This document shows, piece by piece, positions 21,916-29,407 of a stretch of 64,000 nucleotides of DNA. Source of the DNA: Gallionella sp. (lineage in GTDB: Bacteria; Pseudomonadota; Gammaproteobacteria; Burkholderiales; Gallionellaceae); contig JABEVG010000059.1 of NCBI GenBank assembly GCA_013044075.1, forward strand, positions 1-64,000, given 5' to 3'. The translations under genes were made by a program, and so were the position numbers. A model generated the notes under the pieces. The model made no database searches, was not told where the DNA came from, and saw only the letters and a list, made by a program, of their open reading frames with translations. Numbering within the stretch: position 1 is the first letter of the stretch; the number at the start of each line of letters is the position of its first letter.

Positions 21916-21948
21916 ATTTTCATGTTGACCGACAATCTTTGGCGATTC

Positions 21949-22073
21949 GTCATACCCGCGCAGGCGGGTATCCAGCAAATAAAAATCTTCGCGCGCAGGA
22001 CGGCCAAAACCAGGTTTTGTCCACTGCGTGGAATCGCTTTGAATAATTGGATACCCGCCTGCGCGGGTATGAC
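21949..22073. repeat. REP doublet / MITE-like element with 26-bp terminal inverted repeats
   Basis: GTCATACCCGCGCAGGCGGGTATCCA at 21949-21974 and its exact reverse complement at 22048-22073. Confidence 0.92.
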
Positions 22074-22079
22074 GGGCCG

Positions 22080-23576
22080 ATGAGCCTCGCCGTCCTCTAT
22101 AGCCGCGCCCTGTCCGGCATGGAGGCGGAACTGGTCACAGTCGAGGTGCATCTTGCCAACGGCCTGCCCAGCTTCACCATCGTTGGTTTGCCCGAGACCG
22201 AAGTCAAAGAAAGCAAAGATCGTGTGCGCGCGGCTTTGCAGAATTGCAACTTCGAGTTCCCCGCACGCCACATCACCGTCAACCTCGCTCCCGCCGATCT
22301 GCCCAAAGAAAGTGGGCGATTCGATCTGCCCATCGCACTGGGCATCCTGGCTGCCACCGGGCAGATTCCTTCCGACCGGCTCACCGAATATGAATACGCG
22401 GGCGAGCTGGCCTTGACCGGCGAACTGCGTGCGATACGCGGCGCGCTGGCGATGACTTATCGCGCCGCCAATTCCGGTCGCGCTTTCGTGCTGCCCGCCG
22501 TGAATGCGCCGGAAGCCGCGCTGGTCGAGGATGCCGTGGTGTATGCCGCGCAATCGTTGCTGCAAGTCGCCGCCCATCTGGCCGGGCGCGAACTGCTCAC
22601 ACGCTACGTTCCCAATCCGCAAGTCATCACGCCCAACTATCCCGACATGCGCGAAGTGAAAGGACAGACACAATCCAAACGCGCGCTGGAGATCGCCGCC
22701 GCCGGGGGACACAGCGTGTTGATGAGCGGCCCACCCGGAACGGGCAAGAGCATGTTGGCCGCGCGCTTTCCCGGAATCCTGCCGCAGATGACGCAACAGG
22801 AAGCCCTGGAAAGTGCCGCCATGCAATCGCTGGGCGGCACTTTCGAGATCGCGAACTGGAAACGACGGCCTTATCGCGCACCCCATCACACCGCATCTGC
22901 CGTGGCACTGGTCGGCGGCGGCAGCAACCCGCGTCCCGGCGAAATTTCCGTCGCGATGCACGGCGTTTTATTTTTGGACGAGCTGCCGGAATTCGATCGC
23001 AGTGTGTTGGAGGTATTGCGCGAACCGCTGGAGAGCGGTCGCATCACCATCTCGCGCGCCGCCCGCCGTGCCGATTTCCGCGCGCAGTTCCAGCTCGTCG
23101 CCGCAATGAACCACTGTCCCTGCGGCTATCTGGGTCACTACAACGGCAAGTGCCGCTGCACACCCGATCAGGTATCGCGCTATCGCGGCAAAATCTCCGG
23201 CCCGTTGCTGGACCGCATCGACATCCAGATCGAAGTCCCCGCTGTTCCGCAGGAAGACTTGCTCAAACAAGCAGACGGCGAAACCAGTGCGGCCATCCAG
23301 GCCCGCGTGGAAGCGGCGCGACAACGCCAACAAGCCAGACAAAACAAACCCAACGCTCAACTTTCCGTCACCGAGATCGACCGCTACTGCGCGCCGGACG
23401 CGCAAGGTGAGACTTTGCTGCGTCAGGCCATCACCCGCCTCAGCCTTTCCGCCCGTGCCTACCATCGCATCCTCAAGGTGGCGCGCACCATCGCCGATCT
23501 GGCCGGTAGCGAAAACATCCAGACCGCTCACATCGCCGAAGCCGTGCAGTATCGGCGTATGGATAAATCCGGGTAA
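22080..23576 (+). CDS. comM: YifB/ComM family Mg-chelatase-like AAA ATPase
   Basis: MSLAVLYSRALSGMEAELVTVEVHLANGLPSFTIVGLPETEVKESKDRV; MSGPPGTGKSMLA. The provided ORF start (22047) reads through a repeat, so the start was moved to 22080. Confidence 0.92.
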   Translation: MSLAVLYSRALSGMEAELVTVEVHLANGLPSFTIVGLPETEVKESKDRVRAALQNCNFEFPARHITVNLAPADLPKESGRFDLPIALGILAATGQIPSDRLTEYEYAGELALTGELRAIRGALAMTYRAANSGRAFVLPAVNAPEAALVEDAVVYAAQSLLQVAAHLAGRELLTRYVPNPQVITPNYPDMREVKGQTQSKRALEIAAAGGHSVLMSGPPGTGKSMLAARFPGILPQMTQQEALESAAMQSLGGTFEIANWKRRPYRAPHHTASAVALVGGGSNPRPGEISVAMHGVLFLDELPEFDRSVLEVLREPLESGRITISRAARRADFRAQFQLVAAMNHCPCGYLGHYNGKCRCTPDQVSRYRGKISGPLLDRIDIQIEVPAVPQEDLLKQADGETSAAIQARVEAARQRQQARQNKPNAQLSVTEIDRYCAPDAQGETLLRQAITRLSLSARAYHRILKVARTIADLAGSENIQTAHIAEAVQYRRMDKSG

Positions 23577-24258: not shown

Positions 24259-27200
24259 ATGAACCAACATTCTCATCTCATTGAGCCACTCCCCATAGAA
24301 AAATTATTGGCCCAGCGCATCCTGATTTTGGATGGTGCGATGGGCACGATGATCCAGCGCTACAAACTAACCGAAGAACATTATCGCGGCACGGTCCTGC
24401 ATGGCAACTACCCAGGTGTACGCAAGACTTTCGCCGATCATCCCGTGGACGTGAAAGGCAACAACGACCTGCTGGTGCTGACACAACCGCACATCATTCG
24501 CGAGATCCATGCGCAATATCTGGCGGCGGGCGCGGATATTCTGGAGACCTGCACGTTCAACTCCACCGCCGCCTCGCTGGACGATTACGACATGGTGGAT
24601 TTGGCCTACGAATTGAACTTCGCCGGCGCACGATTGGCGCGCGACGTGTGCGACGAGTTCGAAGCCAGGGTCGCCAACAAACCGCGCTTCGTCGCGGGCG
24701 TGCTGGGCCCGACCACCAAGACCGCCTCCATCTCACCCGATGTGAACGATCCGGGTTTTCGCAACATCAGTTTCGACGCATTGGTCGAGGGTTACGGCGT
24801 GGCGATACGCGGTTTGCTGGATGGCGGCGCGGATATTCTGATGGTCGAAACCATCTTCGATACGCTCAATGCCAAAGCCGCATTGTTCGCCATCGAAAAG
24901 CATTTCGAACAACACAAAATGCGCGTGCCGGTGATGATCTCCGGCACCATCACAGATGCATCTGGACGCACCTTGTCGGGGCAAACCACAGAAGCATTCT
25001 GGAATTCTTTGAGCCATGCGCGTCCGCTTTCCATCGGCCTGAACTGCGCGCTGGGCGGCGATCTGATGCGACCTTACATTGAAGAATTGTCGCGCGTGGC
25101 AAGCTGCTACGTGAGCGCGCACCCCAATGCCGGCCTACCCAATCCATTGTCGGAAACCGGCTACGACGAAACACCCGAATACACCGCCAAAGTCGTCAGG
25201 GAATTCGCCACCAGCGGCTTTCTCAACATCGCGGGCGGCTGCTGCGGCACGTCGCCCGCGCACATCAAGGCCATCGCGGATGCCTTGCGCGACGTGCCGC
25301 CGCGCCAGTTGCCGGAACTGGAACACAAGTGCCGCTTGTCGGGCTTGGAGCCCTTCAACATCGGCGACGATGCGTTGTTTGTCAACGTCGGCGAACGCGC
25401 CAACGTGACCGGCTCGGCCAAGTTCAAACGCCTCATTCTCGAAGGTCAATACGACGAGGCCCTGGAAGTCGCCAAGCAGCAGGTAGAAACCGGTGCGCAG
25501 ATCATCGACGTGAACATGGACGAGGCGATGCTGGACGGTCAGGCCGCGATGGTGAAATTTTTGAATCTCATCGCCTCCGAACCGGACATCTGCAAAGTGC
25601 CGCTAATGATCGACTCCTCGAAATGGGACATCATCGAAGCCGGACTGAAATGCGTCCAAGGCAAGTCCATCGTCAATTCGATCTCGCTCAAGGAAGGCGA
25701 AGAAAAATTCCTGGCGCAAGCGCGTCTGGTGCGCAGCTACGGCGCGGCAGCAGTGGTGATGGCGTTTGACGAACAGGGTCAGGCAGACACGTTCAAACGC
25801 AAGACCGAGATCTGTAAACGCAGCTATGGCATCCTGGTAAACCAGGTCGGCTTCCCGCCTGAAGACATCATCTTCGATCCCAACATTTTCGCGATTGCGA
25901 CCGGCATCGAAGAGCACAACAACTACGCGGTGGACTTCATCGAGGCCTGCGCGTGGATACGCCAGAACCTGCCTTACGCGAAGATCAGCGGCGGCGTGTC
26001 CAACGTGTCGTTCTCATTCCGTGGCAACGAGCCGGTGCGCGAAGCCATCCACACCGTGTTCCTGTATCACGCCATCAAAGCGGGCATGAACATGGGCATC
26101 GTCAACGCCGGGCAGCTGGGCGTGTACGAGGAGATCCCGCGCGAATTGCGCGATGCCGTGGAAGATGTGGTGTTGAACCGTCACCCCGACGCGGGCGAGA
26201 AATTGGTCAAGATCGCCGAGAACGTGAAGGGCGGTGGCAAGGAACAGGTCGAGGATCTGGAGTGGCGCAACGGCACAGTGCAGGAGCGGCTAACGCACGC
26301 GCTGGTGCGCGGCATCACCACCTACATCATCGAGGACACCGAAGCAGCGCGCTTAGAGGCTAAGTTCCCCGTTGAAGTCATCGAAGGGCCGCTGATGAAC
26401 GGCATGAACGTGGTCGGCGACCTGTTCGGCGCGGGCAAGATGTTTTTGCCACAAGTGGTGAAATCCGCGCGCGTGATGAAGCAGGCCGTGGCGCATCTCA
26501 TCCCCTACATCGAAGCCGAGAAACTGCGCTCCGGCGACACCAGCACCAAGGGCAAAATCGTCATGGCGACGGTCAAAGGCGACGTGCATGACATCGGCAA
26601 AAATATCGTCACCGTGGTGTTGCAATGCAATAATTTTGAAGTGGTGAATATGGGCGTAATGGTGCCGTGCCAACAAATTTTGGATACCGCGCGCGAACAT
26701 AACGCCGACATCATCGGGTTGTCTGGATTGATTACGCCATCACTCGAAGAAATGGCACACGTCGCCAAAGAAATGGAACGGCAAGGTTTCAAAATTCCGC
26801 TGCTCATCGGCGGCGCGACCACCTCGCGCGTACACACGGCGGTGAAAATCGAGCCGAATTATCCTAGCGGTCAGACCGTGTACGTCACCGATGCCTCGCG
26901 CGCGGTGGGCGTGTGCAGTAATTTGCTTTCCGACACGCTACGCGATGCCTACGTTGCCGAGATTAAAGCGGATTATCAAGCGGCGCGCGAACAGCACGAA
27001 GGCCGCAAAAGCAAAGCGGTTTATGTGACGCTGGATGAAGCGCGCGCACATGGTTTGCAAACTGATTGGGCGCATTACACGCCACCCAAGCCCGCGCTGC
27101 TCGGCGTGCATAAACTGGAAAATTACCCGCTGGAAAATCTGGTGGACTTCATCGACTGGACACCGTTTTTCCAAGCGTGGGAACTTGCCGGACGTTACCC

Positions 27201-28014
27201 GAAAATTTTGCAAGATGAAGTGGTGGGCGTGGAAGCGACCAAGCTATTCAATGACGCGCAAGCCATGTTGAAAAAAATCGTTCAAGAAAAATGGCTCACC
27301 GCGAATGCCGTGTTCGGCTTGTTCCCCGCCAACACCGTAGCCGTTGGTGAAGGGCGGGGCGACGACATCGAAATCTACACCAACGAGAAGCGCAACAAAG
27401 TCGCGATGACTTGGCACAACCTGCGTCAGCAAACCAAAAAGCCCGCCGACATTCCCAACTATTGTTTAGCCGATTACATCGCGCCGAAAACCAGCGGCGT
27501 GGCGGATTACATCGGCGGTTTTGCAGTCACGGCAGGTCTTGGAATAGACGAACATGTCGCGCGTTTTGAACAAGACAACGACGACTACAACGCAATTTTA
27601 TTGAAGGCACTCGCCGACCGTTTAGCCGAAGCGTTCGCCGAACATCTGCACCTGCGTGTGCGCCGCGAATTCTGGGGCTACGCGCCGGATGAGGCCTTGG
27701 AAAATGACGCGCTTATCCACGAAAAATATCGCGGCATCCGTCCCGCGCCCGGCTATCCCGCCTGCCCGGAACACAGCGAAAAGGGTCCGTTGTTCGAGCT
27801 ACTGCAAGCACCAATAAATGCGGGCATCACCATCACCGACAGCTTCGCCATGTTGCCCACCGCAGCGGTCAGCGGCTTCTATTTCTCCCACCCAAAGGCG
27901 CAATATTTCGCCAGCGGCAAAGTGGACAAGGAACAAGTCGCCAGCTACGCCAAACGCAAGGGCTGGACGATGGAAACGGCCGAGCGTTGGTTGGCTCCGG
28001 TGCTGAGTTACTAA
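24259..28014 (+). CDS. metH: cobalamin-dependent methionine synthase
   Basis: 1251 aa; [33 protein letters not shown]-terminal [17 protein letters not shown]. Confidence 0.97.
27961..28014 (+). repeat. metH 3' end, copy 1 (in intact gene)
   Basis: GGCTGGACGATGGAAACGGCCGAGCGTTGGTTGGCTCCGGTGCTGAGTTACTAA = [17 protein letters not shown]. Confidence 0.95.
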
Positions 28015-28101
28015 GCCAGTTCTAATTGCCAGATAGGGCGGATTAAAAGATACTGCAAATTGAAATGAGTTTTTCCATCACGAGGTATCAGGAGTCGCCG
28101 A

Positions 28102-28371
28102 ATGAAATTTGCATGGGACAACAAAAAAGCTGCCGCGAATCTGAAAAAGCACGGCATCTCTTTTGAGCTCGCAGCGGGTGCTTTTTCAGACGAACTATCG
28201 GCGACATTTCCCGACCCCGATCACTCTAAAAGCGAGATGCGACTCATCACTTACGGTATGACAAATGATGGGAAATTATTAGTGGTATCACACACGGAAG
28301 AGGGCGACACGATACGCATCATCAGTGCCAGATTGGCAACAAACCATGAGAGGAAACGCTATGAAATCTAA
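28102..28371 (+). CDS. brnT: BrnT-family toxin
   Basis: MKFAWDNKKAAANLKKHGISFELAAGAFSD...RLITYGMTNDGKLLVVSHTEEGDTIRIISARLATNHERKRYE. Confidence 0.9.
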   Translation: MKFAWDNKKAAANLKKHGISFELAAGAFSDELSATFPDPDHSKSEMRLITYGMTNDGKLLVVSHTEEGDTIRIISARLATNHERKRYEI

Positions 28372-28624
28372 AAAGCAAACACCCGCTGACGAATTGCGTC
28401 TTGAATATGATTTCGATTTTTCCAAAGCGCAACGCGGACGTTACGCCAACCGTTTGAAAACGGAAGGCTCTAACCTAGTATTGATAGAACCCGAATTGGC
28501 AGCGACTTTTCCCGATGCCGCGTCCGTGAATGCCGCGCTACATGCCATTGTTGAATTTGCACAACGCTCGACAGAATTGACTCACCCCGTGACAACAAAT
28601 GCCAGCAAGCGGCGTGCCGCTTGA
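28361..28624 (+). CDS. BrnA-like antitoxin candidate
   Basis: Overlaps the brnT 3' end by 11 nt; MKSKKQTPADELRLEYDFDFSKAQRGRYANRLKTEGSNLVLIEPELAATFPDAASVNAALHAIV. Confidence 0.7.
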   Translation: MKSKKQTPADELRLEYDFDFSKAQRGRYANRLKTEGSNLVLIEPELAATFPDAASVNAALHAIVEFAQRSTELTHPVTTNASKRRAA

Positions 28625-28628
28625 TTTG

Positions 28629-28682
28629 GGTTGGAATTTGGAAACCGCCGAGCGTTGGTTGGCTCCGGTTTTGAGTTATTAG
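28629..28682 (+). repeat. metH 3' end remnant, copy 2 (displaced beyond TA module)
   Basis: GGTTGGAATTTGGAAACCGCCGAGCGTTGGTTGGCTCCGGTTTTGAGTTATTAG = [17 protein letters not shown]; 45/54 nt identical to copy 1 with a 23-nt exact core. Confidence 0.95.
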
Positions 28683-28720
28683 TAGTAAATTTATCAAGAA
28701 ATATTATGGAGAAATGCAAC

Positions 28721-29407
28721 ATGACTACGCTTATTAAAACGGACACCAAACCAGGCGATGGCATGGAAGCGCGAGCCGGACAAACCGTCATCGTGCATTA
28801 CACCGGCTGGCTGTATGACGAAAGCGCACCGGGAAACAAGGGCGCGAAATTCGACAGCTCGCTGGATCGCAACGATCCGTTCAGCTTTCCTCTCGGTGCT
28901 GGACATGTCATCCAAGGTTGGGACGAAGGTGTGGCGGGCATGCGCGAAGGCGGCTCACGCACGCTGATCATCCCGTCCGAGATGGGCTATGGTGAAATGG
29001 GCGCAGGCAATGACATCCCGCCCAATGCGACGCTACTGTTCGAAGTGAAGCTGCTCAAGGTGGTGCATACCAAGATCGATGACGTGAAGGTCGGTAGCGG
29101 TGAAGTAGCACAAGCCGGACAACTGGTGACGGTGCATTACACCGGCTGGTTGTTCGACAAGAACGCGGCGGGTAACAAGGGCATCAAGTTCGACAGCTCG
29201 CGCGATCGCAACGAACCGTTTGAATTCCCACTGGGTCATGGCCGCGTCATCTCCGGTTGGGACATGGGCGTGCAAGGCATGAAGGTCGGCGGTCAGCGCA
29301 CCCTCACCATCCCGCCCGAGATGGGCTACGGCGCACGCGGTGCGGGTGGTGTGATTCCGGCCAATGCGACGCTGGTGTTCGATGTGGAACTACTGGATGT
29401 GCAGTGA
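28721..29407 (+). CDS. tandem two-domain FKBP-type peptidyl-prolyl isomerase
   Basis: Two repeats of VHYTGWL...KFDSS.DR..PF.FPLG.G.VI.GWD.GV.GM..GG.RTL.IP.EMGYG. Confidence 0.92.

Follow-up and report, generated by a model that had tools for sequence, protein, structure and literature searches.

Why does a gene for methionine synthase have its own last codons repeated behind a toxin-antitoxin module? The question arises in a stretch of 64,000 nucleotides (hereafter the window) at the start of contig JABEVG010000059.1 of a Gallionella sp. assembly (GCA_013044075.1; 124 contigs; G000 below), where metH is followed by two small genes, a second copy of its 3′ end and a gene for an FKBP-type prolyl isomerase. 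A preliminary description had proposed that incoming DNA with its own metH 3′ end restored the gene and displaced the native tail to a position beside FKBP. The features of the locus are:

24259–28014, plus strand: metH, intact, encoding a B12-dependent methionine synthase (1251 aa; five Pfam domains)
27781–28014, plus strand: 3′ part of metH that may have arrived with the module, with a putative breakpoint at about −234 (switch at informative sites)
27961–28014, plus strand: tail 1, the metH 3′ end inside the functional gene
28102–28371, plus strand: BrnT-family toxin, 89 aa (PF04365, 95.5 bits, E = 2.4e-27)
28361–28624, plus strand: candidate antitoxin, 87 aa, overlapping brnT by 11 nt, with its stop at 28622–28624
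28625–28628, no strand: junction TTTG between the antitoxin stop and tail 2, without extended microhomology
28629–28682, plus strand: tail 2, the displaced and putatively native metH 3′ end, with its own stop TAG (85% identity; continuity with FKBP)
28724–29407, plus strand: FKBP-type prolyl isomerase (PF00254), the conserved right neighbour

Tail 2 comprises the last 17 metH codons and the stop (54 nt) and starts 4 nt past the antitoxin stop. In the register of the preliminary description it is identical to tail 1 at 45 of 54 nt, with a 23-nt exact core; in a register shifted by one position (27960–28013 against 28628–28681) the count is 46 of 54. A self-BLAST of the window returns the repeat with E ~1e-12, far beyond chance, and the second tail is thus real. 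Seven sense codons differ between the copies, five synonymously and two non-synonymously, as do the stops (TAA/TAG). The module had been named BrnT/BrnA, of which only the first name stands: the toxin domain scores 95.5 bits against a PF04365 cut-off of 34.5, whereas the partner has no match in Pfam or NCBIfam, leaving BrnA unconfirmed by profile. The same partner also lies beside BrnT in three other genomes (G019, G028, G035), and we consider the two overlapping genes a candidate toxin-antitoxin (TA) pair. Elsewhere in the window, a repeat at 21922–22083 that encodes 'VIPAQAGIQ ... WIPACAGMT' and looks like a dispersed repeat type sits just before a comM-like gene (22047–23576).

The surroundings of metH were compared across the genus by searching 76 genomes, 67 of which have a readable metH end. 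Among the 66 relatives, the right neighbour of metH is usually FKBP or an FKBP paralogue, at distances anywhere between 20 bp and over 4 kb. The genes lodged in this gap encode BrnT, PIN, HicAB, ParE, DUF4160-DUF2442, HNH and HEPN proteins, an AAA_15/AAA_21 protein with a DUF3226 partner, GmrSD, a HARE-HTH protein and phzF. The metH-FKBP interval is a hotspot, holding variable and unrelated cargo between conserved flanking genes. No integrase was present among 30 cargo proteins scanned from the relatives, and the module of the window consists of two small genes only. Some TA types are found behind metH in more than one species: BrnT in G000, G019 and G028; PIN/VapC in G460, G461, G467 and G005; and DUF4160-DUF2442 in G024 and, by eye, in G461. 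A common small ORF, GIY-YIG-like by eye, lies directly after metH in G285 (L073) and G035 (L063) as a further recurrent cargo of this gene end; the G285 copy has no Pfam match.

Nor is the second tail a quirk of one assembly. The preliminary description had suggested a search for other cassettes that end in a metH tail, and one or two extra tails were found in six of the 67 genomes, the window's included (G000, G002, G019, G024, G461, G467). The copies are in different states: that of G024 is about 190 nt long and open, while that of G019 (117 nt) has in-frame stops and is followed by phzF, and tail 2 is decayed and pseudogene-like in both G019 and G002. G461 carries an array, in which metH is followed by a DUF4160-DUF2442 type pair, a tail, a VapBC type pair, another tail, further genes and FKBP (pair names assigned by inspection and from resemblance to annotated copies). 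A search for ectopic metH tails elsewhere in the genomes gave nothing above noise.

The layout also recurs at other genes. In a control scan for tail duplications among 605 ORFs of the metH-end regions, the only other true case was xthA in G035, in the order xthA, BrnT, partner, xthA tail; the remaining minus-strand matches were artefacts of antisense FKBP paralogues. Six of the 69 BrnT loci in the genus are clear cases, namely metH twice, xthA, and ettA (named from its sequence) in G432, G450 and G454. Up to four tails are found at ettA, and G454 has an array of ettA, a DUF2281 protein, a tail, PIN, a tail, a BrnT pair and a tail. The clear cases among 50 PIN loci are hsdR (G445) and a mobA-like gene (G029); in G010, a Fic protein lies between hsdR and its tail. 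Fifty BrnT loci from elsewhere in the Burkholderiales yielded clear cases at comM (G267) and at an amidohydrolase gene (G059), the latter with the BrnT pair reversed; the comM copies in relatives of G267 are too alike to tell which is native. In another Burkholderiales assembly (L162), metH is followed by a TIR-DnaB_C protein and a 205-nt copy of the metH tail. TA and defence genes thus appear to have been added repeatedly behind ordinary genes in Gallionella and some relatives, apparently together with a foreign gene end.

Several side observations belong with this survey. The protein at L162 (positions 707–2455; 582 aa), with TIR_2, DnaB_C helicase and DUF3775 domains, is a possible defence protein. 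In Xanthomonas chitinilytica (L211:6575–7046), the last 35 nt of metH are repeated in tandem 112-nt units behind the gene, and a Luteimonas (L182) has one such copy; no TA module was seen at these repeats. At L127 (G443:C15), a BrnT pair in reverse orientation is flanked by direct repeats of 55–57 nt, one of them at the end of a 282-codon ORF with no Pfam match.

If the two tails of a locus were the products of a fresh duplication, non-synonymous changes should accumulate freely in the second copy; an excess of synonymous changes instead indicates diverged orthologues. Counts of synonymous against non-synonymous codon changes stand at 18:4 in hsdR, 38:9 in the amidohydrolase gene, 13:1 in ettA, 11:3 in comM and 10:2 in metH of G024. 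Under a stricter null that assigns half of the changes to an unconstrained copy, ten cases taken together yield p = 0.0036, and hsdR of G445, the amidohydrolase gene and ettA are each significant singly; the 54-nt copy of the window taken alone shows no significant excess (p = 0.45). Several tail pairs are therefore likely to be diverged orthologues rather than fresh duplicates, in agreement with the proposal of two metH lineages in place of slippage.

These comparisons bear on a local tandem duplication, whether by slippage or by unequal crossing-over, in which the module came to lie between the copies at the same time or afterwards and the divergence is due to later mutation. The tails are indeed direct repeats at close range, and the decay of tail 2 in G019 and G002 would suit a redundant duplicate. 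We nevertheless think such an origin quite improbable: the tail pairs of hsdR, the amidohydrolase gene and ettA, though not the 54-nt copy of the window alone, contradict it because their divergence is mostly synonymous, tail 2 of G000 is nearer to the metH tail of G460 than to its own tail 1 (six against nine differences), and two metH tails without cargo between them, an arrangement that the preliminary description had named as speaking against insertion, were found in none of the Gallionella relatives examined. A target-site duplication made by a transposase is likewise unlikely, given this divergence and the varying lengths of the tails.

Which of the two tails is native was approached by aligning the metH-FKBP region of relatives with and without the module. 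G031, G466 and G398 lack the module and have one metH tail, and this tail with FKBP aligns uninterrupted with the window from 28628 or 28639 to 29400. Because the tail and FKBP of module-free species are continuous with tail 2 and its FKBP, tail 2 is most simply the native right-hand end. The metH gene of G000 points the same way: its body is nearest to G460 (86%) and its last 300 nt to G285 (91%); upstream of a cut at about −234, 62 of 80 informative sites match G460, and 18 of 25 match G285 after it (permutation p = 0.001). Tail 2, in turn, matches G460, the closest relative of the metH body, at seven of eight discriminating sites. This mosaic would fit a G460-like recipient and a G285-like incoming end, as supporting rather than decisive evidence. 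In a control on 65 genomes G000 ranked only tenth, with similar or stronger signals in genomes that have no second tail, and such signals are inflated by the choice of nearest neighbours. Mosaicism in the last 330 nt of metH is common in Gallionella and is strongest in G466, which has a single tail. Because it is so widespread, including in genomes with no second tail, it is not attributable to the insertion in the window, and we have downgraded it as specific proof. At the window locus alone, these alignments moderately, not decisively, support tail 2 as the native end; they come from comparison between species rather than between strains of one species.

The joins themselves are scattered. 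Tail copies begin at −55 to −285 from the stop codon, at varied places and in varied genes; the metH tails start at −55, −58, −114 to −118 and −190. A single TA type at metH can have different boundaries in different species (BrnT at −55 and −118, DUF4160-DUF2442 at about −58 and −190). No core sequence is common to the joins, with little or no homology at the junctions compared, and the distance from cargo stop to tail start is at most 31 nt in nine of the ten cases with a measured distance. Scattered junctions with no sequence in common speak for illegitimate joining and against any attachment site; selection or deletion would have trimmed the remainder. In G019 (L049), G467 (L092) and G461 (L091), metH tails start at −118, −117 and −114 behind different or separately placed modules; this clustering could be the trace of a common older event or of a preferred break point.

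The preliminary description had likened the locus to the integration of islands at gene ends, and this analogy is not supported. A site-specific mobile element might integrate at the metH 3′ end and rebuild it, the present cassette being a stripped remnant. Restoration of the gene end and accretion do resemble islands such as the SCC elements at rlmH, and the three tails that start at −114 to −118 could be read as a preferred site, but boundaries from −55 to −285, several unrelated host genes, the missing common core, the lack of an integrase in the scanned cargo and the lack of any virus with a close metH tail make such an element hardly probable at all. An integrase island at the gene 3′ end is rejected for the same want of an integrase in the scanned cargo and of a fixed attachment core. 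As to integron cassettes, no integrase was seen in the scanned cargo. Carriage by a phage or plasmid was also discarded: the only viral matches to metH were three of 27–30%, none a close tail, and no BrnT relative on a plasmid or phage reaches 60% identity.

The best explanation, which we hold to be probable, is homology-facilitated illegitimate recombination at a gene end, with displacement of the native tail. In this process one end of the incoming DNA recombines by homology and the other is joined illegitimately; it has been reported as rare in Escherichia coli conjugation (PMC3240628). At the window, the incoming piece would have comprised the last few hundred nucleotides of metH and the TA pair from another Gallionella lineage. 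Its metH part would cross over with the resident metH by ordinary homology, while its far end, just behind the antitoxin, would be joined to the resident metH tail by illegitimate recombination. The gene would thereby be restored with a foreign 3′ end, the module added and the downstream DNA kept, and the stub of the native tail would be pushed towards FKBP, to decay there. Arrays could form by repetition of the process at the same gene end or by homologous recombination between tails. We infer the direction of transfer, the illegitimate joining as the last step and DNA uptake as the entry route; a ComEC-type protein is encoded in the genome of the window, a widespread protein that is only compatible with DNA uptake. 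Judged from the aligned sequences, the loci appear to have the marks of displacement arrays, that is, homology at one end, little or none at the other, a displaced remnant and repetition at the same end. Tail 2 of G019 is followed by phzF, as is metH itself in G006, an order that favours displacement. Against it, tails within 31 nt of the cargo stop lie closer than joining at random would give, barring later trimming of the joins by deletion or selection, and the layout recurs although the process is reported as rare.

An alternative is an exchange of integrase-free cassettes, in which the donor already had the order gene, TA module, tail, and homologous crossovers took place on the left in the gene and on the right in the tail copy. 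The tail would then be a homology handle into naive gene ends and arrays, and illegitimate joining would be needed once per module. The recurrence of BrnT, PIN/VapC and DUF4160-DUF2442 behind metH in different species, the arrays at metH and ettA, and the cargo stops that nearly abut the tails are in its favour. We consider it unlikely, since the same TA type has different metH tail boundaries in different species and tails down to 54 nt are poor substrates for homologous recombination. A more general form is doubtful: gene-tail copies may serve as homology handles at large, such that a TA or defence gene once enclosed by a housekeeping gene and its tail copy becomes an integrase-free cassette, insertable at the end of that housekeeping gene throughout related genomes. 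Arrays at metH, ettA and other genes would then grow in an integron-like manner by general recombination.

Displacement by homology-facilitated illegitimate recombination, as preferred here, has a counterpart in Vibrio cholerae, where effector-immunity modules of the type VI secretion system (T6SS) are sequentially displaced and the same process was proposed (Kirchberger et al. 2017, PMC5361080); parallels with integrons are noted there, and the same idea is given for Rhs orphan 3′ regions. Both systems have a conserved upstream anchor, illegitimate joining at the far end, an old 3′ part shifted downstream and arrays formed by repetition. In Vibrio, however, the T6SS cluster holds the anchor, and immunity genes or effector ends are what is displaced, whereas the anchors here are housekeeping and restriction genes with a restored 3′ end and the cargo is unrelated TA and defence genes. 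The asymmetry of the ends is also that of the E. coli process, which is known from laboratory experiments and would here be read from repeated natural insertions.

Hotspots between core genes that lack mobile elements and have recombining flanks have been described (Oliveira et al. 2017, PMC5635113). Like the loci studied here, they have variable cargo and conserved neighbours and need no integrase; unlike here, under the hotspot or minimal-mobile-element model the cargo is exchanged by a double crossover, one in each flank, and no copy of a gene tail stays behind. The minimal mobile elements of Neisseria are variable cargo between conserved neighbours and are integrase-free. The term occurs in PMC3388099. 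The Gallionella loci differ from integron cassette arrays and from SCC accretion at rlmH in that no recombinase and no conserved recombination site was found at them. In those two systems, new units are added at one fixed end and older ones are pushed away. A narrow search of open-access full text found no account of housekeeping genes behind which TA or defence modules had accumulated and displaced the gene tail. Taken as a whole, the pattern is best read as displacement through homology-anchored recombination, in a variant form. For the window, the preliminary description was right about the structure and largely correct in its reading, which is partly supported overall.

How small TA and defence modules pass between chromosomes when no plasmid, phage or integrase carries them has so far been poorly explained, and the pattern suggests an integrase-free route for such genes. 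A module behind a gene whose end it replaces could also be retained more readily, as many excisions would damage the gene. The gene-tail stubs may be fossils of the joining step, recording the entry side, the order of additions and the foreign gene end, and the whole genome of any bacterium can be scanned for them. Gene-tail repeats that are short or partial also occur near the BrnT loci L248 (G463:C238; 56 nt), L221 (G020:C93; 36 nt) and L305 (G224:C67; 66 nt); these may be eroded examples of the gene, TA module and tail layout.
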